From positions 1-46,250 of the forward strand of contig CANJPT010000022.1 in assembly GCA_947476195.1 (NCBI GenBank): a stretch of DNA of 46,250 bases, in the 5' to 3' direction. Origin of the DNA: Lewinellaceae bacterium. Its GTDB lineage: Bacteria > Bacteroidota > Bacteroidia > Chitinophagales > Saprospiraceae. This document shows positions 8,338 through 38,582 of the stretch, one piece after another (the stretch's first letter is position 1; each line of letters opens with the position of its first letter). The position numbers and the translations under genes were made by a program. The notes beneath the pieces are model-generated. The model had not been told where the DNA came from, ran no database searches, and saw only the letters and a program-made list of their open reading frames with translations.

Positions 8338-9852
8338 ATGGAAGAAGAAAAAAAGCGCCGTCCGCGCCTCTCTAAGTCGGACATGGATTCCTCGCTGCAA
8401 GAGCGAACAAAATCCGAACACTCTGAAGACCCATTTGTTGAAAAACAAGACAAACCAGTTGACCGTCCTGACAGAGGCCGGGAGGGAGCTGGCTTTGAGC
8501 GCAGGCCTTGGCAGGATCGTAGTCAAGGTAGTCCTGACAGAGGTCGGGAAGGTAGCGGTGGAAACTTCGATCGAAAGCCGTGGCAAGACCGTAGTCAAGC
8601 CGGCGGCGGACAGGGCGGCGGCAATGAACGCAGGCCATATCAGGATCGTAGCCAGGGTGGTGGCGGTCAGGTTGGTGGCGGCAACTACGAGCGCAGGCCA
8701 TATCAGGATCGTAGTCAGGGTGGCGGCGGCAACTATGAGCCCAGGCCGTATCAGGACCGTAGTCAGGGTGGTGGCGGCAACTACGAGCGCAGGCCGTATC
8801 AGGACCGTAGTCAGGGTGGCGGCGGCCAAGGTGGTGGCGGCAACTACGAGCGCAGGCCGTATCAGGACCGTAGTCAGGGTGGCGGCGGCCAAGGTGGTGG
8901 CGGCAATTACGAACGCAAGCCATATCAGGACCGTAGTCAGGGTGGCGGTGGTTCCGACCGACGTCGGGATGGTGGCGGCAACTTCGGAAGAAAGCCTTTT
9001 CGCAAACCCGACGACTTATTGATTGATAAGAAACCAAAGCCTAACCTCCCGAGTGGAGAGGGTATGCCCTTGAATAAATATTTAGCGCACTGCGGACTTT
9101 CATCCCGTCGGAAAGCAGTAGATTTCGTTGAAGGTGGAAAGGTCACAGTCAACGGTGTATTGAAGAAAGAACCTTTTTACCGCATACAACCAGGCGATAT
9201 CGTCATTTGCGACAGTAAACTGATGAAAGTTCAGGAGCGCTTGGTCTATGTACTGCTGAACAAGCCTAAGAACGTAATAACCACTACAGATGATGATCGT
9301 GGCCGAGCTACCGTGATCGATATTGTAGACTCAAGTTTTCCAGAGCGTATTTTTCCAGTGGGTCGTCTGGACCGTGACACGACAGGTCTTGTACTCCTCA
9401 CCAATGATGGAGATTTGGCGCAAAAGCTCACACACCCGAGCTTTGCAGTCCAGAAACAATATCGTGTAGGGCTGCGTCGGGGACTCACCCCAGAGGATTT
9501 GGCACATATCGAACGAGGTGTAGAACTTGAAGATGGACTCATGGAAGTCAATTGGGTACGCTTCTCAGAAGACCATCCGGAACGCGACATTGTGGAACTC
9601 GAAATCAGTTCGGGCCGCAACCGTGTGGTGCGTAGAATCTTTGAGACCTTAGGTTACGAGATCTTTAAACTTGATCGCTTCTATTTTGCGGGTCTGACCA
9701 AAAAAGACCTTGAGCGTGGCAAATTCCGCGAACTTACACAGCGAGAGGTTGTTATGCTCAAGCACTTTACCGGGCATCCTTCCACAGGCAAAAAGAAAAA
9801 AGGCGAAGAAGGCGACTCATCTGAAGAACCAGAAGAGACAACCAAATCATAA
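8338..9852 (+). CDS. RsuA/RluB-family rRNA pseudouridine synthase with repetitive basic Gly-rich N-terminal tail
   Basis: The catalytic part (about residues 243-480) has an S4 RNA-binding domain ('MPLNKYLAHCGLSSRRKAVD'). Next is the pseudouridine synthase core with 'GRLDRDTTGLVLLTNDG', where D345 is the catalytic Asp. Terminal motifs 'RNRVVRRIFETLGY' are typical of the RsuA/RluB/RluE/RluF group, which isomerises uridine in rRNA. The first ~240 residues are a low-complexity tail built of eight (R/K)P(W/Y)QDRSQ modules separated by Gly-rich linkers, with RGG-like character and near-identical DNA repeats. A short acidic/Lys-rich C-terminus follows the core. Usual relatives are about 240-300 aa, so the tail is extra. 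The start ATG follows a G-poor leader. A strong terminator follows (9857). Confidence 0.88.
   Translation: MEEEKKRRPRLSKSDMDSSLQERTKSEHSEDPFVEKQDKPVDRPDRGREGAGFERRPWQDRSQGSPDRGREGSGGNFDRKPWQDRSQAGGGQGGGNERRPYQDRSQGGGGQVGGGNYERRPYQDRSQGGGGNYEPRPYQDRSQGGGGNYERRPYQDRSQGGGGQGGGGNYERRPYQDRSQGGGGQGGGGNYERKPYQDRSQGGGGSDRRRDGGGNFGRKPFRKPDDLLIDKKPKPNLPSGEGMPLNKYLAHCGLSSRRKAVDFVEGGKVTVNGVLKKEPFYRIQPGDIVICDSKLMKVQERLVYVLLNKPKNVITTTDDDRGRATVIDIVDSSFPERIFPVGRLDRDTTGLVLLTNDGDLAQKLTHPSFAVQKQYRVGLRRGLTPEDLAHIERGVELEDGLMEVNWVRFSEDHPERDIVELEISSGRNRVVRRIFETLGYEIFKLDRFYFAGLTKKDLERGKFRELTQREVVMLKHFTGHPSTGKKKKGEEGDSSEEPEETTKS
8500..8945 (+). repeat. In-frame tandem repeats coding for the PYQDRSQ/Gly-rich tail
   Basis: Eight copies of an in-frame module encode (R/K)P(W/Y)QDRSQ, spaced 16, 21 or about 25 residues apart by Gly-rich linkers. 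Two consecutive copies (about 8787-8912) are almost identical over 60 or more bases, which points to recent duplication. The reading frame is preserved in every unit. Confidence 0.85.
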
Positions 9853-20757: not shown

Positions 20758-23700
20758 ATGAATCTCTTTACCTCCCGCGCCCTGTTTTGCTGTTGTTGGC
20801 TCGCTACAGCAATCCTTCCCCTAGCAGCCCAGCAATCATCTCCGGTGTTTGATGCGCAACTCAAACGACATCTATTGACGGCAGAATCTGCTCAGCAGCA
20901 GCTTGTTTTTCAAAATCTTGTACCGGGCCAGACCTATGGTTTGATGGTGCCGGGTGGAGAACTTTGCATTCTTCAATGTATGCCTGATATCTTGGTCATT
21001 ACCCCCAATACACAGGTAATCAGTTATAATGCTGTTACGCACTTGTTGAAGTTTGTGGCTTCTGCATCCAGTATGGAATTTCGGTTTGACTATCCCTGTA
21101 CCTGGGATGCAGCAAACCCGCCAGTGCACTACATAAGTATGATGCGTATTGGTGAAAAGAAAAAAAAGCTGCCCGGAATACCGGATGCGGTGTTAGACGT
21201 CGCTGGTGGGAATGCAGAGGATCTCATTAAACAGGTGTTCATTGGTGGCAACTGTTTCGACGTAACGGGCGTGACCTATGATGGTCAGGGTGGTCAAATT
21301 GGTTCTTTTAGCAATGGCATTACCAATGTGGGGTTTGCTTCAGGGGTTATCATGGCTACCGGGGATATCGGCGTTGCCCCCGGTCCAAACGACCTAGATG
21401 GTGCAAGCGGAGGCTACGGTAACGGAACACCGGATTCTGACCTACAGGGACTGACAAGTGGTGCATTGTTTGATATGGCAAACATTGAATTTGATTTTAC
21501 CCCTACGCAAAGCCCACTGACTTTTGAGTTTGTATTTGCCTCGGAAGAATACTGTGAATATGTGAATACGCAGTTCAATGACGTATTTGGTTTTTTCATT
21601 TCTGGCCCAGGTATCGCGGGTACCCAAAACCTGGCAGTGGTGCCTATGACCAATATCCCCATTACAATTAACACCATCAACCACATTGCAAATTCAGGCT
21701 TCTATGTCCACAATACGCCTGCCTCAGGTAATAACTGTGGCGTGATCCCTCCTGCAGGTGGTGCGGCCGTACAAGAATTGCAGTACGACGGATTTACGCG
21801 CAAAATGGTGGCAGTGGCTTCCGTGATTCCATGTTCAACCTACCATATCAAACTCAAAATTGCTGACGTGGGCGATGGTGTCTGGGACTCAGCAGTGTTT
21901 CTAAAAGGCGGCTCATTCGATGGTGGCGGCAATGCTGCAATTGACTGGTTGGTAAATGGAGTGCCCGATGTTGATGAGGTAACGGAGGGCTGCGGATTGG
22001 TAGAATTGCTGATCGACCGTGTAGGCTCTAATCCGGCACTTCCACTGCCTGTTTCATTTACAATTACAGGAACGGCTACTTCGGGTGCGGATTATGGCCC
22101 CATTTCTACAACGTATGTGATTCCGGCTGGGGCAGACCAAGTAATCGTTCCAGTCAATATTGTCAATGACCTGCTGCCTGAAGGCGCTGAAACGGTCATT
22201 TTGACCTTGAATAACCCCTGTTCTTGCCTCCACCCACAGGAAATTCTAACGATCCTGGACTATAACGCTATGAATCCGATCGCTGATACAGTGGTTATTT
22301 GTGGCGTGGGTGTGGCTACGGTGGGTGTAACCGTGGAAGGCGGCGTTGAGCCCTATACTTATCAGTGGAATACCGGAGGCACGGCCCCGACCATTAGTCC
22401 ATTCGTAAGTACGCCAACGACTTATACCGTCACGGTTACAGATGCCTGTGGTAAAACAAGTACTGCAAAAGCCCGGGTCAACATCAATCCGCCCCCGATT
22501 GCACAGCTTCTGGGGCCTGGCCCACAAATCTGCCCGGGTCAATCTGCCATTTTGATGATCAACTTTACCGGAACAGGGCCATTTGACATTACTTATACGC
22601 TGAACGGTAATCCTGAACAGCCTATCACGGGTATCGTTGATGATCCCTATGGGCTTGTTGTCACTGACATAGGTTCTTATCAACTCACTGGCGTCGTAGA
22701 TGGCTTCGGGTGTCCGGGCCTCGGCAACGGCGCTGTACTGGTATCACCCTCTAACCTTGACCTGACCGGCGTTGCGTCTAATGTGCCATGTGCGGGCGCT
22801 CCTACCGGGTCGATCAACACCACTGTGGCAGGTGGCCAGGGCCCATATAATTACGTTTGGCAGAGCGCATTACCCATTGGAAATATTGCGGATCCGATGG
22901 GTCTTGTACCAGGCCCTTATGCGGTAACGGTAACAGACGGATTTGGCTGTACGGACAATGAAGCCTTTTTTATTACCTCGCCTCCGGTGCTTGCACCGAC
23001 TATCCTGAATGTCCAGGGTGCAAACTGTTTCAATCCAAACGGGGGCAATATCAACCTGAATGTGACTGGCGGAACACCCAACTATACATATCTCTGGAGC
23101 AATGCTGCTACAGTTCAGGATCCACAAAACTTAGCGGCAGGCACCTACACTGTAACCATTACGGATGGCAATGCTTGTACAAAAACGGCAACAGCCGTAG
23201 TACCGGGTGATTTTGTTGCGCCAACTGCGGTGACATCCCCACCCAATTCTATTACATGTTTTTTCCCGGCTGTAACACTCGACGGAACGGGCTCCAGCAG
23301 TGGAGCTGATTTTTCATACAATTGGGTAGCTAACCCCGGCAACATTGTAAGTGGGAATAACACCCTCAATCCAACGGTTAATCAGGCAGGTACTTACATC
23401 CTCACGGTGCAAAACATTGCCAATGGCTGTACTTCCTCCGCCAGTTCGGTGGTAAGTGCCAATGATGATATACCTACCGCTGTTGCAGGGCCCAATGCCA
23501 CCCTTACCTGCGCTGTTACCAATGTGACGCTTGATGGCTCTGCTTCAAGTTTAGGCGGCAACTTTAGCTACTTATGGACGGCTTCTCCAGGTGGAGTTAT
23601 TCTGGGTGGAGAAACCACACTCAATCCAATTGTATCGGCCATAGGCACTTACACGCTCGTGGTCACAAATACACAAAATGGTTGTACGTCTACGGACGTA

Positions 23701-26700
23701 GCCACCGTCAACAACGATCTTACTCCCCCTAATGCAGTCGTGGCAGCTCCGGGGCTAATCACATGTACGGTAAGCGAAGTTACTCTAAACGGCGCAGCGT
23801 CTTCTCCGGCGGGAATTAGTTTTCATTGGACGACCACCAACGGATTTATAGTTTCAGGAGAAAATACGCCTACTGCAGTGGTGAGCGAAGCCGGGGATTA
23901 TACCCTGATCGTTACCAATCCTGGGAATGGTTGTACAAGCGGTCAGACGGTGACCGTCATTCAGAATTTCTCAGCACCCATTGCAGTCGCCTCTGCCAGT
24001 AACCAGATTACTTGTCTCAGTTTGCAAGCTACCGTAAGCGCATTGGGTTCGCAAATGGTTGCCACGGATACCTATGTTTGGTCAACAACAGGGGGCAATT
24101 TTGTATCAGGCACGAATACCCTGACTCCTTTGGTAGATGCAGCCGGCATCTATACCATTGTCATTACCAACCCCACGAGTATGTGTACGTCGCAAGCATC
24201 CATTTTGGTTGCTGCCGACAATATTATTCCTGTCGCCAATGCGGGACTACCTTCAACGCTTACTTGCGCAATCAACTCCGTGTTGATTGGCGACCCACTC
24301 GCTCCAATTGCCCCAGACCTGAGCTATAGCTGGACAGCTGCGCCAGGAAATATTGCTTCGGGGGGAAACACGCCAATGCCGACGGTCAATCAGCCGGGGA
24401 TCTATAATCTTATAGTCTCCAATAGTTCTAACGGATGTACCAATTCGGCTTCGGTGACCATTCCCCAAAATATTTTACCGCCGACTGTAATCGTAGCGCC
24501 TGGCGGGGAGATCAATTGTACGATACCAACCATTCAATTGAATGCTGCTGGCACCAGCACCGGGCCAACATTCTCTTATCAGTGGACCTCCGCTTCCGGG
24601 AACGGTATTGGAGCAGGCGATAATACCCTGACACCAACGATCATTGCCGCCGGGACCTACACGCTGGTAGTGACCAATACGGCAAACGGGTGTACAAATC
24701 TGGCAGCTACTTCGGTGACCACTAATGCAAACGTTCCCACGGCACTTGCTGTTCCGCAGGGAATTCTTACTTGTGGGGTACAAACAATTTCAGTCAGTGC
24801 AAGCGGTTCCACCAGCGGATCGACCATCACTTATCAATGGGGAAGCGTTAACGGCACTATCGTGAGTGGCAATGGAACATCCCAGATTATTGCCGGAGAT
24901 CCGGGCCAATACACGCTCATTGTGACCAACACAGCCAACAACTGTATTGCCACCACAACCATTGATGTGTTGGAAAATATCGTTCCACCTATTGCTGATG
25001 CAGGGGCTGGCAGTATTCTAAACTGTACGGTTTCTGCAATGACCTTGCATGGTGAGAGCAGTAGTGTAGGGGCGCAATTTGGCTACTTATGGACCGCGCT
25101 TATGGGTGGAAATTTTGTTTCATCCACCAATATTCTGAATCCTCAGGTAAATGAGGCTGGTGTGTACCAACTGATGGTCACGGATGTAACAAATGGCTGT
25201 ACCTCTGTGGACCAGGTGGAGATCCTGGCAGATGACAATGATCCGTTTGTGGCACTTTCTCAGCCAGTAGGCTTGAACTGCCTTATTACCCAGGAAATCA
25301 TTAATTCGACAGGATCCTCTACAGGTGCGAATTTTAGTTACCAATGGACCGGGCCAGGCTTGCTGTCAAGCCCTACCGGGGCGAATGCTACAATCAATCT
25401 TCCCGGCAACTACAGCCTGGTCATTACAAATAAAGACAATGGCTGCACCACAGAAAAAACGGTACCTGTAACGCAGGATATTCAAGCTCCACCAGCTGAT
25501 GCTGGTCCTGATGTGTTGCTCAATTGCTATACGCCACAAATGCAAATTGGTGGAACCAACAACCCTTCAGGGCCAAACTTTACCTTTAATTGGGTCAGCC
25601 CGGGGGGGATTATTGCAGGCGGAAATACCCTGACGCCAACGGTGGCAGGTGGTGGCACCTACGAGATTATTGTAACGAATACGCTCAATGGCTGTACCTC
25701 TTCTGATCCGATGATCGTGACCACTGATTTTGAAGCGCCACAAGCCAATGGAGGACCAACCTTCCAGCTAACCTGCACACAGACTACCTACTCCTTGCAG
25801 GCCATTGCTCCGGTGGGTCCAAACTTTACCTACCAATGGACGACGATAGGGGGGAGTTTTATTTCTCCCTCTAATATTTTAAACCCAACGGTAAATGGCG
25901 CCGGAGAATATTTTCTGTTGGTGACGAATACAACCAACGGCTGTACCTCATCGCCAACCGTTCAGATTACGAAGGCGGCTGATGTGCCAAATGCGGCAGC
26001 CAATACTGCGCCAAACCTTACTTGCGCACTTACTCAACTACCACTCAATGGCTCAGGCAGTAACTTTGGTATAGGCTATAATGTGGTATGGACTGCTACC
26101 AATGGTGGTAATATCGTCAGTGGCGCCAATACGCTTAACCCGATTATCGATGCACCAGGCACCTATACGATCACGGTTCAAAATTTGGTTAATTTCTGCC
26201 AGGCCAACAGTAGCGTAACGGTACTGGAAGACATCGTTCCACCGCCCATTGATGCGGGCCCTCAGCAAACGCTAACCTGCGCAGTGCTGACGCTTAATCT
26301 TCAAGGCAGTAATTCGGCGCCGGGTACCTTTACATACAACTGGATCACGCCCAACGGGCATATCGTAAGTGGCGCCAATACCTTGACCCCGCTGATTAAT
26401 GCGACAGGTTATTACGAACTGGAAGCTACAAGCCTTCAAAACGGATGCTCCAATACGGTAAGCGTGGATATTATTGCCAACAAGGTCGATCCTGTTTCGG
26501 CAATTGCCCAACCGGATATCCTGACCTGTGTCGTGCATCAGATCACCCTTGATGCAGGAGCAAGTAGCACCGGTAATATGGATTATACGTGGTCGACGGC
26601 AGGTGGAAATATCCTGGATCAATCCAATCCATTGGCAATCGTGGTGGATCTTAAGGGCCCTTATACCCTGCTGATCAAAGACAATGTGAACGGCTGTACT

Positions 26701-28296
26701 AGTTCAGTAACGGTGAATGTGCTACAAGATATCCAGAATCCAATCGCTGCTGCGGGAACGGATGGCTTGCTTACTTGTGCCATTACATCTTTGAATTTGA
26801 ACGGCAGCGGTTCAAGTACCAATGGCAATTTCTTCTACCAATGGACTACGCCAAATGGCAATATCCTGGTTGGCGGAAATACTTTAGCACCCGTCATTAC
26901 GAAAGGGGGGTCTTACGACCTTGTGGTAGTGAACAGCGATAATGGCTGTAAGTCTACGGATCAGGTGATTGTAAATACAGACACCCAAGATCCTATAGTT
27001 GCCATTGCTACCCCTGGTGTGATCGGTTGTACGACTCCTACCGTACTACTCAACGGCGCAGGCTCGTCTGCTGGTCCTAATTTCCTGTCTGCATGGACCA
27101 CTGTCTCAGGCAATATTGTGAATGGGGCCAACACAAATTCCGCTACGGTCAGCAGTGCTGGTTTGTATACCCTGAACGTATTAAATAACAACAATGGTTG
27201 CTCGGCCTCCCAGACAGTTCAGGTAAGCGATAACACGGTTTTACCACTCGCAGAAGCTGGCCCGCCGTTTACGCTCACTTGCAATGTTGATCAGGCTACT
27301 TTACAGGGTTCTGCTTCCAATGGTTCAATTTATACCTATGTCTGGTCTACGCAAGGAGGTAATATTCTTTCCGGGGCTAATTCGCTTCATCCAGTGGTAA
27401 ATCAACTGGGTACTTATTCATTGCTCGTGACTAATACAGCCACAGGTTGTAAGCAAACCGACAATGTTCAGGTTTTAGTAGAGACCAATGTGCCGACCGA
27501 CTTTGATTATGCCCTGGTGAAACCCACTTGTAAGGACAACGACGGTCTTATTACTTTTGGGCCGGTACAAGGCGGTTTCGCACCATACCGATATTCGATC
27601 AACGGAGGTCAGAACTATACATCAATCCTTGATTTTTCGGCGATCGCACCAGGCACCTATGATTTGTTCATTCAGGATGCAAATGGTTGTGTGTTCCATC
27701 AGCCACTGGTTGTGCCTAAGGCGCCAGACCCGTTTATCACCACCGATCCGGAGTTTCAGATCCAACTTGGAGACGACCAGGAGTTGAATGCTATACTGGG
27801 GCCTGGTTATCCCTTGGCTTTGGTGCAAAGTATCGTCTGGACACCGCTCGAGGGACTAACGTTTGATGGTACAAGTATCCAAAACCTGTTGAATCCGACG
27901 GCTATGCCGCTCAAAACAACAGAATATACCGTGACGATTATAAGCACGGATGGATGTCAAGCAACGGATCGTGTTTTGATCCGGGTCGACACCCGTCCGC
28001 ATATCTACATCCCCAATGCATTCTCTCCCTGGAATGAAGATGGCGAAAATGATATCTTCATGATCTTTGCCGATGGTCCCCAGATTGATAAGGTGGACAT
28101 CTTCCAGATCTTCGACCGCTGGGGTGAAATGATATTCACGGACGAAGGCTTCCAGCCCAACGATCCGGCACACGGCTGGGACGGAAGGCACCGGGGACAA
28201 TTGATGACGCCAGCAGTGTTTGTCTATTATGCCGAGATCCGGTTGATCGACGGGCGGGTGCTGCTCTTTAAAGGTGATGTGACTTTGGTGAGATAA
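20758..28296 (+). CDS. Giant T9SS type B adhesin with 17 tandem Ig/PKD-like repeats
   Basis: The 2512-residue protein starts with a signal peptide (MNLFTSRALFCCCW...LPLAAQ). A choice-of-anchor L-type domain spans about 150-395 ('FASGVIMATGDIG', 'FEFVFASEEYCEYV', 'NDVFGFFISGPG'). A Calx-beta-like domain follows at about 400-495 ('GTATSGADY', 'LPEGAETVILTL'). SprB-type repeats lie around 665-815. Seventeen tandem units of about 84 residues fill 820-2243, each with a Cys pair ('LTC' near the start and 'NGCTS' near the end) and 'YxWT..GNIVSGxNTLxP'. One SprB-like unit and a type B sorting domain (2415-2512, ending GDVTLVR) complete it. It should be exported by T9SS and displayed on the surface, likely for adhesion or gliding; both are inferred. 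No partner SprF gene is adjacent. Confidence 0.9.
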   Translation: MNLFTSRALFCCCWLATAILPLAAQQSSPVFDAQLKRHLLTAESAQQQLVFQNLVPGQTYGLMVPGGELCILQCMPDILVITPNTQVISYNAVTHLLKFVASASSMEFRFDYPCTWDAANPPVHYISMMRIGEKKKKLPGIPDAVLDVAGGNAEDLIKQVFIGGNCFDVTGVTYDGQGGQIGSFSNGITNVGFASGVIMATGDIGVAPGPNDLDGASGGYGNGTPDSDLQGLTSGALFDMANIEFDFTPTQSPLTFEFVFASEEYCEYVNTQFNDVFGFFISGPGIAGTQNLAVVPMTNIPITINTINHIANSGFYVHNTPASGNNCGVIPPAGGAAVQELQYDGFTRKMVAVASVIPCSTYHIKLKIADVGDGVWDSAVFLKGGSFDGGGNAAIDWLVNGVPDVDEVTEGCGLVELLIDRVGSNPALPLPVSFTITGTATSGADYGPISTTYVIPAGADQVIVPVNIVNDLLPEGAETVILTLNNPCSCLHPQEILTILDYNAMNPIADTVVICGVGVATVGVTVEGGVEPYTYQWNTGGTAPTISPFVSTPTTYTVTVTDACGKTSTAKARVNINPPPIAQLLGPGPQICPGQSAILMINFTGTGPFDITYTLNGNPEQPITGIVDDPYGLVVTDIGSYQLTGVVDGFGCPGLGNGAVLVSPSNLDLTGVASNVPCAGAPTGSINTTVAGGQGPYNYVWQSALPIGNIADPMGLVPGPYAVTVTDGFGCTDNEAFFITSPPVLAPTILNVQGANCFNPNGGNINLNVTGGTPNYTYLWSNAATVQDPQNLAAGTYTVTITDGNACTKTATAVVPGDFVAPTAVTSPPNSITCFFPAVTLDGTGSSSGADFSYNWVANPGNIVSGNNTLNPTVNQAGTYILTVQNIANGCTSSASSVVSANDDIPTAVAGPNATLTCAVTNVTLDGSASSLGGNFSYLWTASPGGVILGGETTLNPIVSAIGTYTLVVTNTQNGCTSTDVATVNNDLTPPNAVVAAPGLITCTVSEVTLNGAASSPAGISFHWTTTNGFIVSGENTPTAVVSEAGDYTLIVTNPGNGCTSGQTVTVIQNFSAPIAVASASNQITCLSLQATVSALGSQMVATDTYVWSTTGGNFVSGTNTLTPLVDAAGIYTIVITNPTSMCTSQASILVAADNIIPVANAGLPSTLTCAINSVLIGDPLAPIAPDLSYSWTAAPGNIASGGNTPMPTVNQPGIYNLIVSNSSNGCTNSASVTIPQNILPPTVIVAPGGEINCTIPTIQLNAAGTSTGPTFSYQWTSASGNGIGAGDNTLTPTIIAAGTYTLVVTNTANGCTNLAATSVTTNANVPTALAVPQGILTCGVQTISVSASGSTSGSTITYQWGSVNGTIVSGNGTSQIIAGDPGQYTLIVTNTANNCIATTTIDVLENIVPPIADAGAGSILNCTVSAMTLHGESSSVGAQFGYLWTALMGGNFVSSTNILNPQVNEAGVYQLMVTDVTNGCTSVDQVEILADDNDPFVALSQPVGLNCLITQEIINSTGSSTGANFSYQWTGPGLLSSPTGANATINLPGNYSLVITNKDNGCTTEKTVPVTQDIQAPPADAGPDVLLNCYTPQMQIGGTNNPSGPNFTFNWVSPGGIIAGGNTLTPTVAGGGTYEIIVTNTLNGCTSSDPMIVTTDFEAPQANGGPTFQLTCTQTTYSLQAIAPVGPNFTYQWTTIGGSFISPSNILNPTVNGAGEYFLLVTNTTNGCTSSPTVQITKAADVPNAAANTAPNLTCALTQLPLNGSGSNFGIGYNVVWTATNGGNIVSGANTLNPIIDAPGTYTITVQNLVNFCQANSSVTVLEDIVPPPIDAGPQQTLTCAVLTLNLQGSNSAPGTFTYNWITPNGHIVSGANTLTPLINATGYYELEATSLQNGCSNTVSVDIIANKVDPVSAIAQPDILTCVVHQITLDAGASSTGNMDYTWSTAGGNILDQSNPLAIVVDLKGPYTLLIKDNVNGCTSSVTVNVLQDIQNPIAAAGTDGLLTCAITSLNLNGSGSSTNGNFFYQWTTPNGNILVGGNTLAPVITKGGSYDLVVVNSDNGCKSTDQVIVNTDTQDPIVAIATPGVIGCTTPTVLLNGAGSSAGPNFLSAWTTVSGNIVNGANTNSATVSSAGLYTLNVLNNNNGCSASQTVQVSDNTVLPLAEAGPPFTLTCNVDQATLQGSASNGSIYTYVWSTQGGNILSGANSLHPVVNQLGTYSLLVTNTATGCKQTDNVQVLVETNVPTDFDYALVKPTCKDNDGLITFGPVQGGFAPYRYSINGGQNYTSILDFSAIAPGTYDLFIQDANGCVFHQPLVVPKAPDPFITTDPEFQIQLGDDQELNAILGPGYPLALVQSIVWTPLEGLTFDGTSIQNLLNPTAMPLKTTEYTVTIISTDGCQATDRVLIRVDTRPHIYIPNAFSPWNEDGENDIFMIFADGPQIDKVDIFQIFDRWGEMIFTDEGFQPNDPAHGWDGRHRGQLMTPAVFVYYAEIRLIDGRVLLFKGDVTLVR
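23215..27485 (+). repeat. Seventeen tandem ~250-bp coding repeats in the adhesin gene
   Basis: The units are about 251 bp long and encode ~84-residue Ig/PKD-like modules. They are diverged at DNA level (no long identical stretches noticed), so the array is old or under diversifying pressure rather than recently expanded. Each unit keeps the two Cys positions, except that unit 12 has 'NFC' and unit 4 'SMC' in place of NGC. Confidence 0.85.
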
Positions 28297-28321
28297 GTGT
28301 GGCTGTTGATGCAGCAGAAAT

Positions 28322-28555
28322 AAACATGAGTCATCCCGAATTTTGGGAGTCCTTGGCCTCGGAGAGGCTTAATATTGGTAGAAAATGGATTTTTGATTTT
28401 TGATGGACCTCGTAGAGGTCTAACATTGGTAAATTTAATCCACGAAAATGTTTATGTTAGACCTCTACGAGGTCCTTGTGCGCTATCATAACATAATATC
28501 TACCAATGTTTAACCTCTACGAGGTCCTTTTCAAAATTCGGGATGACTCATGTTT
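28322..28555. mobile_element. MITE-like 234-bp palindromic element, copy A
   Basis: The element is bounded by 24-bp terminal inverted repeats starting AAACATGAGTCATCCCGAAT. Inside are four short palindromes (28355, 28405, 28460, 28512), spaced about 50-55 bp, built on GACCTC(G/T)..GAGGTC. Each is flanked by an A(A/C)ATTGGTA motif. The whole is an imperfect palindrome centred near 28438. It is the same length as copy B (34074-34307) and matches it closely in inverted orientation. No ORF and no clear target duplication are seen. It is probably a non-autonomous repeat. Confidence 0.8.
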
Positions 28556-28609
28556 TCAGTACCGCCTTTGTTCACTATTTACTAAAATATTTTTTTCTGA
28601 CTATCTGCC

Positions 28610-30336
28610 TTATTCCCGTGCGACACAGAGCGTAGCAACCGCCAGCCGCTTCCCCTCATCCGTCAACACGGCCCAGTAAATGCCAGGGGCAATTCCTTCC
28701 AACGAAATAGTGCTTTCCGCTGACTTCAAAGGTGCTGCGTAAACCGTCTGCCCCAACACATTGATGAGAGAAAATCGGGCGGACGGCCTTGCCCCCGGAT
28801 ATTGAACGCTCACTGCTTCAAAGGCCGGATTTGGGTAAAGCAACATAGCCTGTCCTTCAGATTCCGGCTCCCCGGTCGATATCGTTTTAATTTCAATATC
28901 CCGGCACATTGTATCACAGCCATTGGCATTGCACACGGTCATACACACATGGTAAGTGCCGGGCAATGCGTACAGGTGCACCGGGCTGGTGTCCGCGCTC
29001 ATTTGCCCGTCGCCAAAGTCCCAGTGCCAGGTGTCAGGATTGTAGGTAGAGTTGTCTGTAAAAACAATATTGAGCGCACTGGTATCAGCTTTGTCCCAGC
29101 GCCACCAGGCCAGCGGGTGGTTGAGCAAGCCCAAAGAGTCGCATCCACTACCTTCCAACGGCCCGAGTCGGTAGTTGGGGAAGTGCGGCATGGTGGCAAA
29201 ATTCTCATTGGGGAAATAGACGCCGCCCAATACCACCTCGCAGGCCTTGCCTTTTCGGTTGGGGTACCTGATATAATGCCCGTAATGTGTCCAGGAAAAA
29301 GGCATGATGTAGATTTTCCCATCCATCATCAGGTTCATGTTGGCAAATTTAGGATAAGGCCCTTGCCAAAGCACCACGGTATCGGCAGAAGCGGCAATAT
29401 CGGGCGCATTCAGGTCATATTGAACGATCCAAGAGGAAGAGGAAACATACAAAAACCGGGAATTGGGCGACACGGCTGCTCCGGCTCCAAAAGACCAGTG
29501 CTGCGGGAATTCGATCAAAATCGGATTGGAAAGCAGGCCGTTACAACGGTCGAAATCAAAGATTCGAATACCGTTCCAGGCATCAAAGTCAACGTACTTG
29601 CTGCCGTCGGGCGTGAAGACATTCTGGCCGCCGCCATCATGATATTGAAACCAGGGCGGCTGGTAGCCAATGTGCTGGGTATCTATTTGGGTAAAGCCAT
29701 CCTGGCCAAGCAGGGCTCGGTAATAGGTGTTCAAAGTGTCGTCTTGGGCCATAACCCACCAGTCGCGACCATTGGCATGGCGGCAGGCTGATAATTCCAT
29801 AAAAACAACTCCATTCCAAAGTATTTGATTTTTTTTGTTATCTTTCCTTTGCCATTATTTAGGCGCATATCGGCAATAGAATATAATGTTTTAGGTACTT
29901 TAACCCCAAAAATGGGTGCATATTCTATCTTTGAATGGATGAGATAGAAAACAGAATCGTTATTGCCTTCTGGGAGGCCAATCATTCCATCTTGCAAAGA
30001 ATACCCTTCTGCATACCACTGTTGTGCAACTTCTCCCCAATTTAAACTGTCTCCATTTTCCAACTGTTTATGGTCGTTATTAAGGACTTGTATTCCGTTG
30101 CTGTAAAGTAGTAGGTTTCCCTTTTTATCAGATAAAGTAGTTGTACTTAGGTATAACCCCATATTACCATCAATTTGAGTCAATGTATAGGGATATTTTG
30201 TAAAATCAATCCAATTGCTAGGTGTCAAGGGAATACCGTCATAACCAGCTCCACTAATCCAATTGGCATCATAGTATTGACATGTAGCAAGTAATGGATT
30301 TAAATATACTAAGAAGAAAAAAAGGTACTTTTTCAT
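28610..30336 (-). pseudogene. Frameshifted T9SS type A-sorted protein with PKD domain
   Basis: Two adjacent frames make one protein. The 5' part (from ATG 30336) has a signal peptide (MKKYLFFFLVYLNPLLATCQ) and runs to about 29800, ending out of frame after 'KKIKYFGMEL'. The 3' part resumes at 29800 with 'MELSACRHANGRDWW', a motif that follows directly in intact relatives. It then has a propeller-like region, a PKD domain ('WHWDFGDGQMSADTSPVHLY') and a type A sorting domain ('LLYPNPAFEAVSVQ', 'NVLGQTVY'). A single-base deletion in a T-run (T5 on the minus strand, plus 29801-29805) explains the break. A -1 slip is possible but the site is not a canonical heptamer. A sequencing error is also possible. 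It lies just inside copy A of the inverted element. Confidence 0.8.
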
Positions 30337-30340
30337 ACGC

Positions 30341-30376
30341 AAAAAAGCCGGGCTTTGCTAAATGGCAAAGCCCGGC
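30341..30376 (-). terminator. Terminator-like hairpin with T6 immediately before the frameshifted gene's start
   Basis: On the minus strand a 12-bp stem (GCCGGGCTTTGC / GCAAAGCCCGGC) is followed by TTTTTT and, 4 nt later, the ATG at 30336. No gene lies upstream on this strand, so it is either an orphan terminator or a leader attenuator. Confidence 0.7.
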
Positions 30377-30622
30377 GCAAGTTAGAATGCCGATAAATGT
30401 TAGGATGAAGGGGAGCAATAATCTTGAGTTTATATTTTTGTAATGGTTGGCGACATCTTGATATCCCACATGAAAATGTGATTAAAATAGATAGTATACA
30501 GCAAGTAATTGTTTCAAAGTATAGGAGAATTATTACGAAATTATAGCCTATTGGGTTAATTAATGATCACTTTACATTGGAGGTATGAAATAAATGGCAA
30601 AACAGCAGCTTACCTTCGCCCC

Positions 30623-31777
30623 ATGTTTTCTACCACGAAAAAAATCGGCATACTAGGCGGCGGCCAGCTTGGCAAAATGCTCTCACTCGCTGCAGCCAAC
30701 TGGGATTTTAAGATCTTCTGCCTTGATCCCACGCCCGAGGCTCCAGCCAGTACCGTTTGCAGCGGATTCACGGTAGGCGATTTCAACAACTACGACGAAG
30801 TGCTGGCTTTTGGCCTGGACAAGGACCTGCTTACCATCGAGATCGAGCACGTAAACACCGATGCCCTCCGCGAACTCGAACGCCTCGGCAAAACCGTCCA
30901 TCCGAGTCCCCGGGCCCTGGATATCATCAAGGACAAAGGTTTGCAGAAGGAATTTTACCGCCAACACGATATTCCTACCGCCCATTTCGAACTTTTTGAG
31001 GACGAAAAAGCCTTGAAAAAAGCCATTGAATCCGGAGCCTGGAAACTCCCACTGGTGCAAAAAACACGCACTGCAGGCTATGATGGCAAGGGCGTGGCTA
31101 TCCTTCGAACCCTGGCAGACCTGGAAACCAAACTCCTGCCTGGTCCATGTCTGGCAGAAGACCTTGCGCCCATTGAAGTAGAAATTGCTATTGTGGCAGC
31201 ACAAAACCCGCAGGGCGAAGTGGCCGTTTTTCCGGCAGTCGAAATGGATTTTCATCCGGAAGCCAATCTGGTAGAGTTTTTACTTTGTCCGGCGCGTATT
31301 TCACCACTTGTGGCTGCGGAGGCAGAAGCATTGGCTGAAAAAGTTATTCGCGCGTTTGATGTTTGCGGCTTACTGGCGGTGGAAATGTTCTGGACCAAAG
31401 ACGGACAACTTTTGGTGAATGAAGTCGCCCCACGACCCCACAATTCAGGACACCAAACCATTGACAGCGCACACACGAGCCAGTTTGAGCAACATTTACG
31501 CGGAATTTGCGATTTGCCACTTGGATCTACGGCCTCCAAAACGCCGGTAGCTATCATGTTAAATTTACTTGGTGAACCCGGTCACAAAGGTCCTGTGCGA
31601 TATGAAGGGGTGGAAGAATGCCTGGCGCTTGAAGGCGTAAACATCCACCTTTACGGAAAGGCGCTCACTTCGCCCTTCCGGAAAATGGGACATGTGACAA
31701 TTACGGCGGATACAGTAGCAGAAGCCATGAAAAAAGCGAACTTTGTGAAGGAAAAATTAAAGGTATGTGCAGGTTAA
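30623..31777 (+). CDS. purK: N5-carboxyaminoimidazole ribonucleotide synthase
   Basis: The 384-residue ATP-grasp enzyme makes N5-CAIR from AIR, bicarbonate and ATP in purine synthesis. Motifs are complete: 'KIGILGGGQLGKMLSLAA' at the N-terminus, 'TRTAGYDGKGVAIL' in the ATP-grasp domain, and the signature 'NEVAPRPHNSGHQTIDS'. The ATG at 30623 begins right at the conserved Rossmann-like strand; an in-frame ATG at 30563 would add a non-conserved 20-residue extension. TACCTTCG (30612-30619) resembles a -7 box with one mismatch but is too close to the ATG for a normal leader. The partner purE is only 620 bp downstream, after a lipoprotein gene. Confidence 0.96.
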   Translation: MFSTTKKIGILGGGQLGKMLSLAAANWDFKIFCLDPTPEAPASTVCSGFTVGDFNNYDEVLAFGLDKDLLTIEIEHVNTDALRELERLGKTVHPSPRALDIIKDKGLQKEFYRQHDIPTAHFELFEDEKALKKAIESGAWKLPLVQKTRTAGYDGKGVAILRTLADLETKLLPGPCLAEDLAPIEVEIAIVAAQNPQGEVAVFPAVEMDFHPEANLVEFLLCPARISPLVAAEAEALAEKVIRAFDVCGLLAVEMFWTKDGQLLVNEVAPRPHNSGHQTIDSAHTSQFEQHLRGICDLPLGSTASKTPVAIMLNLLGEPGHKGPVRYEGVEECLALEGVNIHLYGKALTSPFRKMGHVTITADTVAEAMKKANFVKEKLKVCAG

Positions 31778-31841
31778 ACAACCAACGCAAGCAGGTGAAT
31801 TGACGTCTAGCTGAGTATTATTCATCCAACCCAATTTTGTT

Positions 31842-32357
31842 ATGAAAAAGAATTTAGCAGTACAGACCATTCTACTATTGGCGCTTGCATTTTTTTCCTG
31901 CCATAAAGAATGTGATAAGGCTAACACCGATCCCAATATCAAGGGCTGTGGTGATTTCAAAGTTGCAAAAATTATCGCTGAGGATAAGATCTTGTCTGTT
32001 TGGATTGATCGGAAAAAAATTGCCTATTCAACACAGTTTCAAACCTTTGAAAATGTTGCCAATGAAGGTTTTGCCACCGTTAAAATTGAGCAAAACTGCA
32101 ATATTGATGCAATATGGTCTGGCATATGCAACGATGTTTTTCAGGACCCCGGCTGCCCAAGCGTACATTGGTCTTTGCAGAAAGGCAAACTTTCTTTCAA
32201 AGTAAGCAAGGTGCCGACAGCATCTGCGTGCAACGATTTCTATCTGGCCACCGTAATGCTGGAGAATGCCGAATTCAAAAAAGACAGCAGCAGCGAAACG
32301 CAATTGATCAACAAGGTCGAATTTAATAATGTACAAGTTGGCTGGTGTGCAGGGTAA
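31842..32357 (+). CDS. Putative lipoprotein, unknown function
   Basis: The 171-residue product has a signal peptide with lipobox ('LLLALAFFSC') and thus should be a lipoprotein. The mature part is Cys-rich (eight or more Cys), with 'CGDFKVAKI' and 'FVNNVQVGWCAG'-like ends that suggest a disulphide-stabilised beta domain. I recognise no family. It lies between purK and purE, on the same strand, with 64 nt before and 39 nt after, so it may be cotranscribed with them. Its relation to purine synthesis is doubtful. The ATG at 31842 is preceded by a G-poor leader. Confidence 0.65.
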   Translation: MKKNLAVQTILLLALAFFSCHKECDKANTDPNIKGCGDFKVAKIIAEDKILSVWIDRKKIAYSTQFQTFENVANEGFATVKIEQNCNIDAIWSGICNDVFQDPGCPSVHWSLQKGKLSFKVSKVPTASACNDFYLATVMLENAEFKKDSSSETQLINKVEFNNVQVGWCAG

Positions 32358-32360
32358 CGC

Positions 32361-32396
32361 TTTACTCACTCACTCACTCATTCACTCACTCACTCA
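32361..32396 (+). repeat. CTCA tetranucleotide repeat abutting the purE start codon
   Basis: Nine tetranucleotides (TTTA, four CTCA, TTCA, three CTCA) end exactly at the ATG of purE (32397). The tract has no G and is 36 nt long. The same type of repeat precedes the ATG at 1161. Confidence 0.85.
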
Positions 32397-32876
32397 ATGG
32401 TCGCAATAATCATGGGCTCCGACTCCGATCTGCCCGTCATGCAAAAGGCTGCAGATATCCTCACCGAACTTCAGGTCCCGTTCGAGATGACCATTGTATC
32501 CGCGCATCGCACCCCGACACGGATGTTCGAATTTGCGAGCGGGGCACACGAACGAGGCATTCGGGTAGTGATCGCGGGTGCGGGTGGGGCAGCGCATTTG
32601 CCGGGTATGGTAGCGGCAATTTCGCCTTTGCCCGTGATTGGCGTGCCTGTTAAATCATCCAACTCTATTGATGGCTGGGATAGCATCCTGTCGATCCTTC
32701 AAATGCCTGAAGGGGTGCCGGTAGCGACCGTTGCGCTGAATGCTGCACGAAATGCTGGAATATTGGCTGCACAAATGCTGGCTACCAGCGACCCGGCATT
32801 ATTGCAACGTATTATTCAATTCAAAAAATCCCTGGAAGCCAAAGTCCTGGAAAAAGCGAAAGCGATGGAGGGGTGA
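32397..32876 (+). CDS. purE: N5-carboxyaminoimidazole ribonucleotide mutase
   Basis: The 159-residue class I PurE converts N5-CAIR into CAIR, the step after PurK. Motifs include 'IIMGSDSDLPVM', 'SAHRTPTRMFEF', 'VIAGAGGAAHLPGMVAA' and 'MPEGVPVATVAL'. The catalytic His lies in 'SAHRT'. Octameric cytosolic enzyme by family. The start follows directly on the CTCA repeat and the protein begins 'MVAIIMGSDSD', as usual for the family. Its partner purK is upstream on the same strand, separated by the lipoprotein gene. Confidence 0.97.
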   Translation: MVAIIMGSDSDLPVMQKAADILTELQVPFEMTIVSAHRTPTRMFEFASGAHERGIRVVIAGAGGAAHLPGMVAAISPLPVIGVPVKSSNSIDGWDSILSILQMPEGVPVATVALNAARNAGILAAQMLATSDPALLQRIIQFKKSLEAKVLEKAKAMEG

Positions 32877-32957
32877 TTGGCATAAGATTTACGAATTCAG
32901 ATTACATGATTTACGATTTTCGAATACAATCATTAATCCACCAATCACTAAAGCCCC

Positions 32958-34022
32958 ATGTCACAAAAGCACCGCCGCCGCAAAAGTTTGAAGAAGGGTC
33001 TGCCTCCAGGCTCACTCATATACACGGGTCATCAGGAGGAATCACCGGCTAAGGTGATTAGTCTGGCTTACAGCGACACCGTTTTTCAAGAAAAATCAGG
33101 CTACAGCAACCCACTGCCGGGTCTGCAGAAAAACCTTGTTTTGTGGACTGATGTGTGCGGACTCACCGATACGAACCTCATCGAGCAGATTGGCAATGAC
33201 CACCAGATCCACCCGCTCGCCCTCGAAGACGTGCTTGATACCCAGCAACGTTCTAAACTGGAGGAGTTTGACAATGGATTGTTCTTTATTGTACATCATT
33301 TAAAAGTCGATTGTAAAGCGCTCGAGCTCCACAGCGAGCAGATCGCACTTTTTGCGGGACATAACTTCCTGGTATCGTTTCAGGAAGATCCCGACGATAC
33401 CCTCGCACCCGTGCGTAAACGCTGTGAAGATGGCATTGGAAGGCTCCGTAAAAAAGGCTCGGATTTTTTGGCATATGCACTGCTCGACCTGGTGGTCGAT
33501 AGTTATTACGCGGTGCTTGACGACCTCGAATCACAGGCTCTCGAAGTAGAAAGTAGCCTTCATAGCGACGGAGCACAACAAACAACCAAGGCCCGCATGT
33601 TTGCCCTGAAAAGGGTGTTCAATGAATTCAGACATCGCCTGATTCCACTCCGGGAGGCCGTTACCCGCCTGTACCGGACGGAGAGTGAACTGGTCGAGGA
33701 TAGTACACGGCTCTATTTGCGGGATTTGGTTGATCACGTGGCGCAGATCCTGGATGGTATTGACAATCAACGGGATATGCTCGCCAATCTGGAAGCGCTA
33801 TTTCAGGCAGAGGCAGCCAACCGGCTCAACAATGTGATGCGTCTGTTGACCGTAATAAGCACCATTTTTATCCCCCTGTCATTTATAGCAGGGATATACG
33901 GGATGAACTTCGATAATATGCCTGAACTGCATTGGCATTATGGCTACTTCCTTATTTTGGGGGGGATGTTTATCTCCATGGCGGGTATGCTGATATATTT
34001 TAGGAAGAAGCGCTGGATTTGA
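32958..34022 (+). CDS. corA: CorA-family divalent metal transporter (second copy)
   Basis: The 354-residue protein has the CorA layout: a cytosolic N-terminal domain, long stalk helix, and two C-terminal membrane helices joined by a YGMNF loop (GMN at 315-317). The N-terminus is basic ('MSQKHRRRKSLKKG'). It is longer than the CorA at 19141 and only weakly similar to it, so the two are unlikely to be recent duplicates. Magnesium or other divalent cation transport is inferred. It lies inside the block bounded by the inverted elements, 82 nt after purE. Confidence 0.93.
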   Translation: MSQKHRRRKSLKKGLPPGSLIYTGHQEESPAKVISLAYSDTVFQEKSGYSNPLPGLQKNLVLWTDVCGLTDTNLIEQIGNDHQIHPLALEDVLDTQQRSKLEEFDNGLFFIVHHLKVDCKALELHSEQIALFAGHNFLVSFQEDPDDTLAPVRKRCEDGIGRLRKKGSDFLAYALLDLVVDSYYAVLDDLESQALEVESSLHSDGAQQTTKARMFALKRVFNEFRHRLIPLREAVTRLYRTESELVEDSTRLYLRDLVDHVAQILDGIDNQRDMLANLEALFQAEAANRLNNVMRLLTVISTIFIPLSFIAGIYGMNFDNMPELHWHYGYFLILGGMFISMAGMLIYFRKKRWI

Positions 34023-34073
34023 AATACAGCAAAAACTTTAGCAATAACTAATAGTCTGCAATTCGTACATATT

Positions 34074-34307
34074 AAACATGAGTCATCCCGAATTTTGAAA
34101 TTGACCTCGTAGAGGTTAAATATTGGTAGATATTATGTTATGATAGAGCAAAAAGACCTCGGAGAGGTCCAAAATAAACATTTTTGTGGATTAAATTTAC
34201 CAATGTTAGACCTCTACGAGGTCCATCAAAAATCAAAAATCCATTTTCTACCAATATTAAGCCTCTCCGAGGCCACGGACGCTCAAAATTCGGTATGACT
34301 CATGTTT
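34074..34307. mobile_element. MITE-like 234-bp palindromic element, copy B (inverted)
   Basis: It has the same length and terminal repeats as copy A (28322-28555), in inverted orientation. The reverse complement matches copy A at nearly every position, with changes mainly around the third palindrome and near one end. It starts AAACATGAGTCATCC at 34074 and ends GACTCATGTTT at 34307. The same four-palindrome pattern is present. It ends 47 nt before the ATG of the metalloprotease gene. Confidence 0.8.
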
Positions 34308-34354
34308 ATTTGAGCTCGCATGTGAAACAAATCTACTTTTTTCAAATCCTACCC

Positions 34355-37791: not shown

Positions 37792-37824
37792 AGGATGGAA
37801 AAGATGATTGGTGAATGGTTTGTT

Positions 37825-37959
37825 GGTCATTGGGCCATTGGGGTCATTGGGTCATTGGGGTCATTGGGGTCATTGGGTCATTGGGGTCATTGGGGTCATT
37901 GGGTCATTGGGGTCATTGGGTCATTGGGTCATTGGGGTCATTGGGTCATTGGGGTCATT
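37825..37959. repeat. Minisatellite of 8/9-bp GGG(G)TCATT units
   Basis: Sixteen consecutive units alternate between GGGTCATT and GGGGTCATT; unit 2 is GGGCCATT and the first is short. It fills most of the gap between rnhB and the SRPBCC gene, and so forms the leader of the SRPBCC-recO mRNA, where it reads AATGACCC(C). The unit order is mixed rather than strictly periodic, which suggests repeated slippage. ORFs reading through it are artefacts. Confidence 0.93.
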
Positions 37960-37976
37960 AGGGGTTTGCGGATGTC

Positions 37977-38582
37977 TTAAAACAACTCCATTTGTTCGGA
38001 TGCAGGCAACAACTGAAACGTGCGCCGGTGCCAGGGCGAAATTCCGTTTTGCCGGATAGCTTCCCTGTGTAATGCGGTGGGATAGCCCTTGTTTTGTTGC
38101 CAGTGGTACGCTGGATATTCGGCGTGAAGTCTGAACATGGCCTCGTCTCGATGGGTTTTGGCAAGGATAGAAGCTGCTGCGATGGAGGCGTATTTTCCGT
38201 CTCCTTTTACTACGCAAAGATGCGGTGTATCGGGATAAGGGTGAAATTTATTGCCGTCAACCAGGATGAATTGGGGGCGGGTGCTAAGCTGATTGAGGGC
38301 ACGGTGCATCGCGAGCAGCGAAGATTTAAGGATATTGATTTTGTCAATTTCTTCAGCGCTTACCTCAGCAACAGCCCAGGCAATGCTTTCCTTTTCAAGG
38401 ATCGTTCGCAGGTGGTCACGCTGTTTTTCAGAAAGTTGTTTGGAATCATTTAGCAGGGGATGGCTAAAACCTTTGGGCAAAATTACCGCTGCCGCAAACA
38501 CTGCGCCAGCCAGGCAGCCCCGACCTGCTTCGTCGCAGCCTGCCTCCAGGAGTTCGGCCTGATGATAGGGGAGGAGTGCCAT
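37977..38582 (-). CDS. rnhB: Ribonuclease HII
   Basis: The 201-residue enzyme removes RNA from RNA-DNA hybrids and single ribonucleotides. Motifs are complete: '[15 protein letters not shown]' with catalytic D17 and E18, '[12 protein letters not shown]', 'FILVDGNK', '[22 protein letters not shown]' and a C-terminal '[13 protein letters not shown]'. The start at 38582 gives 16 residues before the first Asp motif, which is usual. It lies first of the minus-strand run with the SRPBCC gene and recO, separated by the minisatellite, so co-transcription across it is uncertain. Confidence 0.95.

Follow-up and report, generated by a model that had tools for sequence, protein, structure and literature searches.

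What are the two inverted 234-bp repeats that enclose a 5.5-kb block in the genome of a Lewinellaceae bacterium (GCA_947476195.1), and what could have moved them? The stretch of DNA analysed here, called the window below, is the whole 46,250-nt contig CANJPT010000022.1 of this assembly (4.76 Mb, 97% complete). The repeats, copies A and B, had been described from the sequence alone (the original prediction) as similar to miniature inverted-repeat transposable elements (MITEs). Our analysis suggested that they are probably chimeric MITEs, which carry the ends of an IS4-like insertion sequence (IS) on the outside and the ends of a gutted Y1 transposon on the inside.

Both copies were found at the predicted positions with the same length of 234 bp (Table 1). 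Copy A and the reverse complement of copy B were identical at 220 of 234 positions (94%), and each copy was indeed an imperfect palindrome, matching its own reverse complement at 182/234 (A) and 180/234 (B) positions. The predicted 24-bp terminal repeats were perfect in A and carried one change in one end of B. In a repeat search of the window (minimum length 40, seed 14), A and B were the sole inverted pair listed, with arms of 243 nt (28313-28555 and 34074-34316) that were 93% complementary and 5518 nt apart. As single-stranded DNA, copy A was predicted to fold at -67.2 kcal/mol, compared with a shuffle mean of -19.4 (z -15.2; none of 200 shuffles was as low), and the z value of its RNA fold was also about -15. 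A 22-nt end pattern with up to 3 mismatches gave 44 matches in the same genome and its reversed form none. The fold and these matches indicated that the structure of copy A is not due to chance. No structured RNA above the Rfam gathering score was found in the window or in locus L001 (the window overlaps L001 and L004).

The copy number was estimated by blast as had been proposed. The search returned 87 matches in the genome, many of them one place on both strands. By hand count, the long matches came from 29 places, namely A, B and 27 others, and the short remnants from about 11. Both ends were recognisable at a length of at least 180 bp in 19 fetched places, and some copies were eroded or tandemly expanded internally. 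Among 14 complete copies that were aligned, the closest pair was 94.4% identical and the most distant 67.7%; the identities of copy A to L002, L003 and B were 94.4, 94.0 and 94.0%, respectively. These values gave no sign of a very recent burst, nor of the single segmental duplication without conserved ends that had been raised as a counter-explanation, because A is equally close to two other copies. No gene was identified in the MITE; two predicted open reading frames (ORFs) that extend across copies begin within the element at a TTG codon. As a separate observation, L052 (1500-1712, contig C72 of this genome) holds two bare hairpins of about 40 bp built from the two outer ends and nothing else; one of them, the first, directly follows an ORF that by eye resembles acyl carrier protein.

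The outer ends were also found in related genomes, contrary to the lack of further copies there that would have refuted the original prediction. With up to 2 mismatches, the end pattern was present in 29 of 120 genomes of the bacterial family (29 genera, the present one included), and the reversed pattern had no match. When one locus per genome was read, the elements bounded by these ends were of varied length, and a gene was present in some. This gene encodes a 446-aa DDE transposase, which matched PF01609 above the cut-off; no NCBIfam model reached its cut-off (best IS4 model, 51.7 bits versus 152). A two-sequence alignment gave the spacing Y349-R352-E356-K363, i.e. the YREK motif, Y(2)R(3)E(6)K, by which the IS4 family is defined (PMC2266710). 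Four IS copies with both ends were 1448, 1448, 1456 and 1507 bp long (L101, L102, L220 and L221; the ends of L102 have 5 mismatches). The DDE transposase with its motif, the single ORF, the length of 1.45-1.5 kb and the inverted repeats are thus shared with the IS4 family. Members of that family are reported to make target duplications of about 10 bp (PMC2266710), which were not seen by eye in the four IS copies; for this reason, the partner IS was called IS4-like and not a member, and the failure of the NCBIfam IS4 models is a second difference.

A profile built from two transposase sequences matched 8 of the 120 genomes, and 6 of these were among the 29 with ends (p 0.0025); the other two were G018, with a weak match, and G068, with diverged ends. 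No match was obtained in the present genome or in one genome of the same genus, with the same profile that matched the others. In named genomes, two exact ends at a distance of 170-200 nt delimited 26 stretches from nine genomes: Arcicella rosea (8), Lewinella cohaerens DSM 23179 (5), four metagenome-assembled genomes (MAGs) of Saprospiraceae (7), an uncultured Bacteroidetes MAG (3), a Bacteroidota MAG (2) and a Spirosomataceae MAG (1). L. cohaerens was the sole transposase holder among the nine, with two intact copies beside MITEs. These relatives, together with the SprB, CHU_C and Por_Secre_tail domains encoded in the window, likewise point to a host that is probably a Saprospiraceae-like member of Bacteroidota. 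Because the same ends bound full ISs with a DDE transposase in relatives, A and B are, judged from sequence, MITEs of an IS4-like IS. The MITE-like character thus stood up on many copies, conserved ends, lack of coding capacity and ends shared with an autonomous element, the last through full ISs of relatives and not of this genome.

The interior has a structure of its own, which the original prediction did not mention. In copy A, it consists of a palindrome, a GTAG tag and a second palindrome, followed by the same series in inverted orientation. Two inverted half-units of this kind were seen in 13 of 22 representatives, which came from 11 genomes (two each from the present genome and G107) and of which some had an imperfect inner palindrome. 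From the start of the first palindrome, the tag followed 22-24 nt on and the second palindrome about 50 nt on (46-54 nt). The palindrome arms differed between genomes (GACCTC, GCCCC, GGTCCC, GGTGC, GCTCC and others). In an alignment of 29 half-units, 22 from MITEs and 7 from Y1 loci, GTAG was invariant and the palindromes were variable; since these halves had been picked for showing the tag (the set excludes the right halves of L085 and L159), the invariance is partly a result of selection, and the varying palindromes at constant spacing are the stronger point. An automatic rule found tagged palindromes on both strands in 20 of 60 elements (7 of 19 copies in this genome). After shuffling of the interiors the mean was 0.01, and none of 97 flank segments satisfied the rule. 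Of 16 copies of this genome, 14 had a measurable left spacer, which was 10-11 nt in all of them, and 15 had a right spacer of 4-5 nt; between genomes the distance from element base 22 to the first palindrome ranged from 1 to 28 nt (12 in copy A). The interior of Bin29 resembles the CCCACGA and AACCG palindromes beside another Y1 gene of the present genome (L034), and in the eight other representatives (Arcicella, L. cohaerens, G076, L088, L097, L131, L138 and SJ208b) the plan was absent or partial.

The inner-unit pattern had 61 matches in this genome, and 15 stretches were fetched. No outer end was detected, even at 9 mismatches, around the units of L194 (C30), L199 (C156) and L205 (C17), or in the sequence read around a cluster on contig C90. 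Free movement of inner units was rejected as the main mode in this genome, although it may occur. Two side observations concern the interiors: L208 (C74:1-800) and L207 (C93:1500-2600) carry the inner unit in tandem arrays with a period of 46-47 nt inside family members, and L132 (253-426, G001:C105) has a group II intron (RF02001, 114.9 bits) inside a family copy that departs from the family sequence right after the first palindrome.

The half-units matched sequences that flank genes of Y1 (HUH) transposases. By pattern search, one unit type occurred in 6 of the 120 genomes, including G019, which lacks the outer ends; there and at other places, inner units were present without them. In G019, two inverted halves directly enclose a Y1 reading frame of 149 aa (L263), and in G055 a second Y1 gene is enclosed in the same manner (L177). 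In both loci, the gene occupies the position where the MITE has a loop only, and the halves align with those of the MITEs MAG_1, G107 and Prado034. The present genome has a 155-aa Y1 ORF without internal stops on C90, accompanied by five units with the copy A palindrome; such units adjoin this one of its seven Y1 matches. The original prediction that no transposase is present therefore held for the IS4-type enzyme, which had no match in this genome, but not for the Y1 type, with seven Y1_Tnp matches outside the window. The Y...Q..HH signature of subclass 1.2 was read in 12 of the 14 Y1 loci related by tblastn to the C90 protein, the assignment being by motif. Y1 genes beside half-units share this signature with TnpA Y1 subclass 1.2, whose members are reported to be generally without typical terminal hairpins (PMC6006769); the genes here differ in that they adjoin GTAG-tagged double hairpins, which were found beside at least four of them (L033, L177, L188 and L263).

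The association was also counted. A first, stricter scan found the unit only at L033 (tag distance 23 nt, taken from the sequence); reading of the flanks and a looser rule, set after L263 had been seen so that its p value is a guide only, found more. The 10,565 bp of sequence flanking Y1 genes contained 4 strict halves, and 225,321 bp of other sequence contained none; the nominal p of 2e-7 overstates the case because the four come from two loci. These counts bear on the possibility that A and B are ordinary MITEs derived from the IS4-like IS, whose hairpin-rich interior is unrelated to Y1 transposons and whose likeness to Y1 flanks reflects convergence or common intergenic palindromes. Palindromes are indeed frequent near Y1 genes and between genes, and the MITEs with the same ends in Arcicella, L. 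cohaerens and G076 have unrelated interiors. However, MITE halves and Y1 flanks align across palindrome, tag, spacer and second palindrome, and strict halves were absent from the 225 kb of background and the 97 flank segments, so we consider this explanation unlikely.

The insertion sites were examined with 70 end-pair records (ends 45-430 bp apart, up to 6 mismatches per end), of which 60 are at least 180 bp long; the short ones probably include hairpins from the left ends of full ISs. Target site duplications are frequent in MITEs, though not universal. At several offsets and lengths, the 70 records gave no clear signal: the largest excess was 3/70 versus 0.41 expected (4-mers at offset +2), and 2-mers at offset +1 occurred in 13/70 versus 8.3 expected. 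A second set of 22 Arcicella records has eight places in common with the first; 21 of its records were taken from the long-match places of A. rosea, at least 37 in number, and the remaining one is from a different Arcicella. In this set, the mean longest shared word was 4.68 versus 4.31 after shuffling (shuffle maximum 5.0). By eye, the four IS copies showed no target duplication either.

Gaps between convergent genes were over-represented. The 19 elements of this genome lay between convergent ORFs in 12 cases and tandem ORFs in 4, never between divergent ones, and overlapped an ORF call in 3; background gaps were convergent in 11/75 cases (p 4e-6, or 5e-5 if the three overlaps count against). 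For 25 elements elsewhere, the numbers were 11 convergent, 11 tandem, 1 divergent and 2 overlapping (background 19/112 convergent, p 0.0025); 17 Arcicella records were convergent and 5 tandem, and two of the four IS copies (L220 and L221) were between convergent ORFs. The ORF caller was simple and the orientation classes are approximate, and the background counts of the window, which overlaps L001 and L004, include the gaps holding A and B. Inverted flanks scored at least 9 in 4 of 59 elements versus 0.17 expected. Insertion into palindromes was not built on, because L160 (BWSM_97, one of these four) and L018 (C159, outside the 59), which have long inverted flanks close to contig ends, may be assembly fold-backs.

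The sites also bear on another explanation, according to which the repeats are of the repetitive extragenic palindromic (REP) or REPIN type and were moved by Y1 enzymes only, the outer repeats being their outermost hairpin, picked up by IS4-like ISs. No target duplication is expected from Y1 transposition, and none was clear in the MITEs. The occurrence of the outer repeats as bare 40-bp hairpins would also fit, as would a genome with a Y1 ORF free of stops and no IS4-like enzyme. On the other hand, the Y1-type structure occurs without the outer repeat in L263, L177 and the end-free units, and in many genomes the elements bounded by the outer repeats have no Y1-type interior; these repeats also stand at both ends of full ISs. 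This explanation was regarded as improbable, more so than that of an ordinary MITE.

The chimeric origin is thus the reading that we prefer. The outer repeats would be ends of an IS4-type IS whose DDE transposase moves the element in trans, and the interior would be a gutted mini-element, i.e. two inverted "hairpin, GTAG tag, hairpin" ends resembling those of HUH Y1 subclass 1.2, from which the gene was lost. Y1 mini-elements may have become enclosed between IS4-like ends, probably more than once since palindromes and spacers differ between genomes. Each composite would then have been copied as one unit, as suggested by the nearly constant spacers among the copies of this genome, and the copies may have a terminator-like effect on transcription. 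In this genome, the family is probably inactive, because a search for the IS4-like transposase gave no match and identity between the closest copies is 94%; its Y1 ORF looks intact, while the outer (IS4-like) enzyme is missing.

Several results weigh against a chimeric origin. The Y1 gene on C90 has units on one side only, the four strict halves are confined to L033 and L188, and L263 and L177, as seen by reading, fail the strict rule, which was itself written after L263 had been seen. A clear two-half plan was lacking in 9 of the 22 representatives, and 40 of 60 elements, including 12 of 19 copies in this genome, failed the automatic rule. The IS4-type enzyme was absent from the present genome and from eight of the nine named MITE genomes tested, and the MITEs did not show the IS4-type duplications of about 10 bp. 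Transposition was not observed, and the genomes compared yielded no empty site: G040, of the same genus, had none of the ends and lacked the gene order, and for the Arcicella locus L158, among the matches listed, four of seven other genomes have the flanking genes separately and three have only one of them clearly.

The 5.5-kb block between the copies is regarded as a neighbour and not as a part of the element. Its purK, purE and corA genes, named in the original prediction, were all supported by Pfam. The gene beside copy A had been described as frameshifted, and the overlap of two minus-strand ORFs in different frames (29731-30342, without a Pfam match, and 28610-29800, with PKD and Por_Secre_tail (type IX sorting) domains) agreed with this; judging from the sequence, a single gene was probably split by a frameshift or by misassembly. 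A link to copy A was unsupported, the frame break being about 1.2 kb away. Copy A starts 25 bp past the stop of a large surface-protein gene, a 2512-aa ORF (20758-28296, plus strand) with SprB, PKD/Ig-like and CHU_C domains. The fragmented gene converges on copy A from the other side and ends at a distance of 54 bp, and copy B is about 50 bp 3' of corA. Inversion or deletion of the block by recombination, as had been suggested, is possible given a 92-nt identical run shared by A and B, but nothing that was found shows inversion. In the only same-genus genome compared, purK, purE and corA matched on separate contigs, and therefore no ancestral block order could be compared. That recombination between A and B flips the block as a switch is very improbable: the 243-nt arms, 93% complementary with the 92-nt run, would suit it, but A and B are merely two of a dispersed family in which L002 and L003 are as close to A as B is, and the same-genus genome offers no order for comparison.

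Elsewhere in the window, an array of 8/9-bp GGTCATTGGG(G) units was seen at 37808-37980, and a similar ATGACCCAATGACC array adjoins a MITE remnant on C199 (L200). Glycine-codon-rich 48-nt direct repeats at 8539-9001 are probably coding, and CACT/ACTC simple-repeat tracts lie at 1135-1174 and 32359-32410, the latter directly before the purE ORF.

Table 1. Positions of copies A and B, their parts and the genes between them in the window
Feature	Position	Strand	Basis
Copy A, probable chimeric MITE	28322-28555	+	sequence, repeat search, blast
Copy A, left outer inverted repeat (IS4-like end)	28322-28345	+	sequence, end-pattern search
Copy A, palindrome 1 (GCCTCGGAGAGGC)	28356-28368	+	comparison of 22 representatives
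Copy A, GTAG tag of left half-unit	28378-28381	+	comparison of 22 representatives
Copy A, palindrome 2 (GACCTCGTAGAGGTC)	28406-28420	+	comparison of 22 representatives
Copy A, palindrome 2 of inverted right half-unit	28460-28474	-	comparison of 22 representatives
Copy A, tag of right half-unit (CTAC on +)	28500-28503	-	comparison of 22 representatives
Copy A, palindrome 1 of right half-unit	28513-28525	-	comparison of 22 representatives
Copy A, right outer inverted repeat	28532-28555	-	sequence, end-pattern search
Block between the copies (5518 bp)	28556-34073		repeat search, ORFs, Pfam
Secreted-protein gene fragments	28610-30342	-	ORFs, Pfam
purK	30563-31777	+	ORFs, Pfam
Small ORF	31842-32357	+	ORFs
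purE	32397-32876	+	ORFs, Pfam
corA	32958-34022	+	ORFs, Pfam
Copy B, probable chimeric MITE, inverted relative to A	34074-34307	-	sequence, repeat search, blast
Copy B, outer inverted repeat	34074-34097	+	sequence, end-pattern search
Copy B, palindrome (GTAG tag at 34126-34129)	34103-34117	+	read from sequence
Copy B, palindrome	34155-34169	+	read from sequence
Copy B, palindrome	34209-34223	-	read from sequence
Copy B, palindrome (tag, CTAC on +, at 34248-34251)	34261-34273	-	read from sequence
Copy B, outer inverted repeat, one change	34284-34307	-	sequence, end-pattern search

The chimeric MITEs recall several known systems. GTAG palindromes, units beside Y1 genes, inverted dimers and a location at gene ends are shared with the GTAG REPs, REPtrons and TIRtrons of PMC3733652, where double palindromic terminal inverted repeats are also mentioned. 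In the canonical GTAG REP, GTAG is at the 5' foot of the hairpin, whereas here it is 8-10 nt 3' of palindrome 1; there are two palindromes per end, and the unit is inside IS-type ends. An association of ISs with palindromes in the spaces between convergent genes is also known for ISs that insert into REPs (PMC1525189), among them the IS4-family member ISRm22. In that arrangement the REP receives the IS, whereas in the present elements the IS ends enclose a REP-like unit. BrickBuilt of Porphyromonas gingivalis (PMC4596501) is likewise a Bacteroidota MITE with internal repeats and no transposase remnant, but its interior is a 23-nt tandem minisatellite, and variable target duplications were seen in 3/4 copies examined. 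No title or abstract describing a composite with IS ends around Y1-type halves was found in the open-licence literature, which is weak evidence of absence.

It is about an even question whether such elements are recurrent chimeras of Bacteroidota with nested DDE and HUH/Y1 ends, movable by either enzyme, in which the inner ends would be the partner of TnpA 1.2 and the outer ends would insert between convergent genes without duplication. The finding connects what could move these repeats, the possible DNA of subclass 1.2 Y1 enzymes and the spread of REP-like repeats. An IS4-like group without target duplication would be an exception to the family rule. If REP-like units ride inside IS-type ends, the copy number of REPs may not be a measure of how active their own enzyme is, and REP populations would then be read differently.

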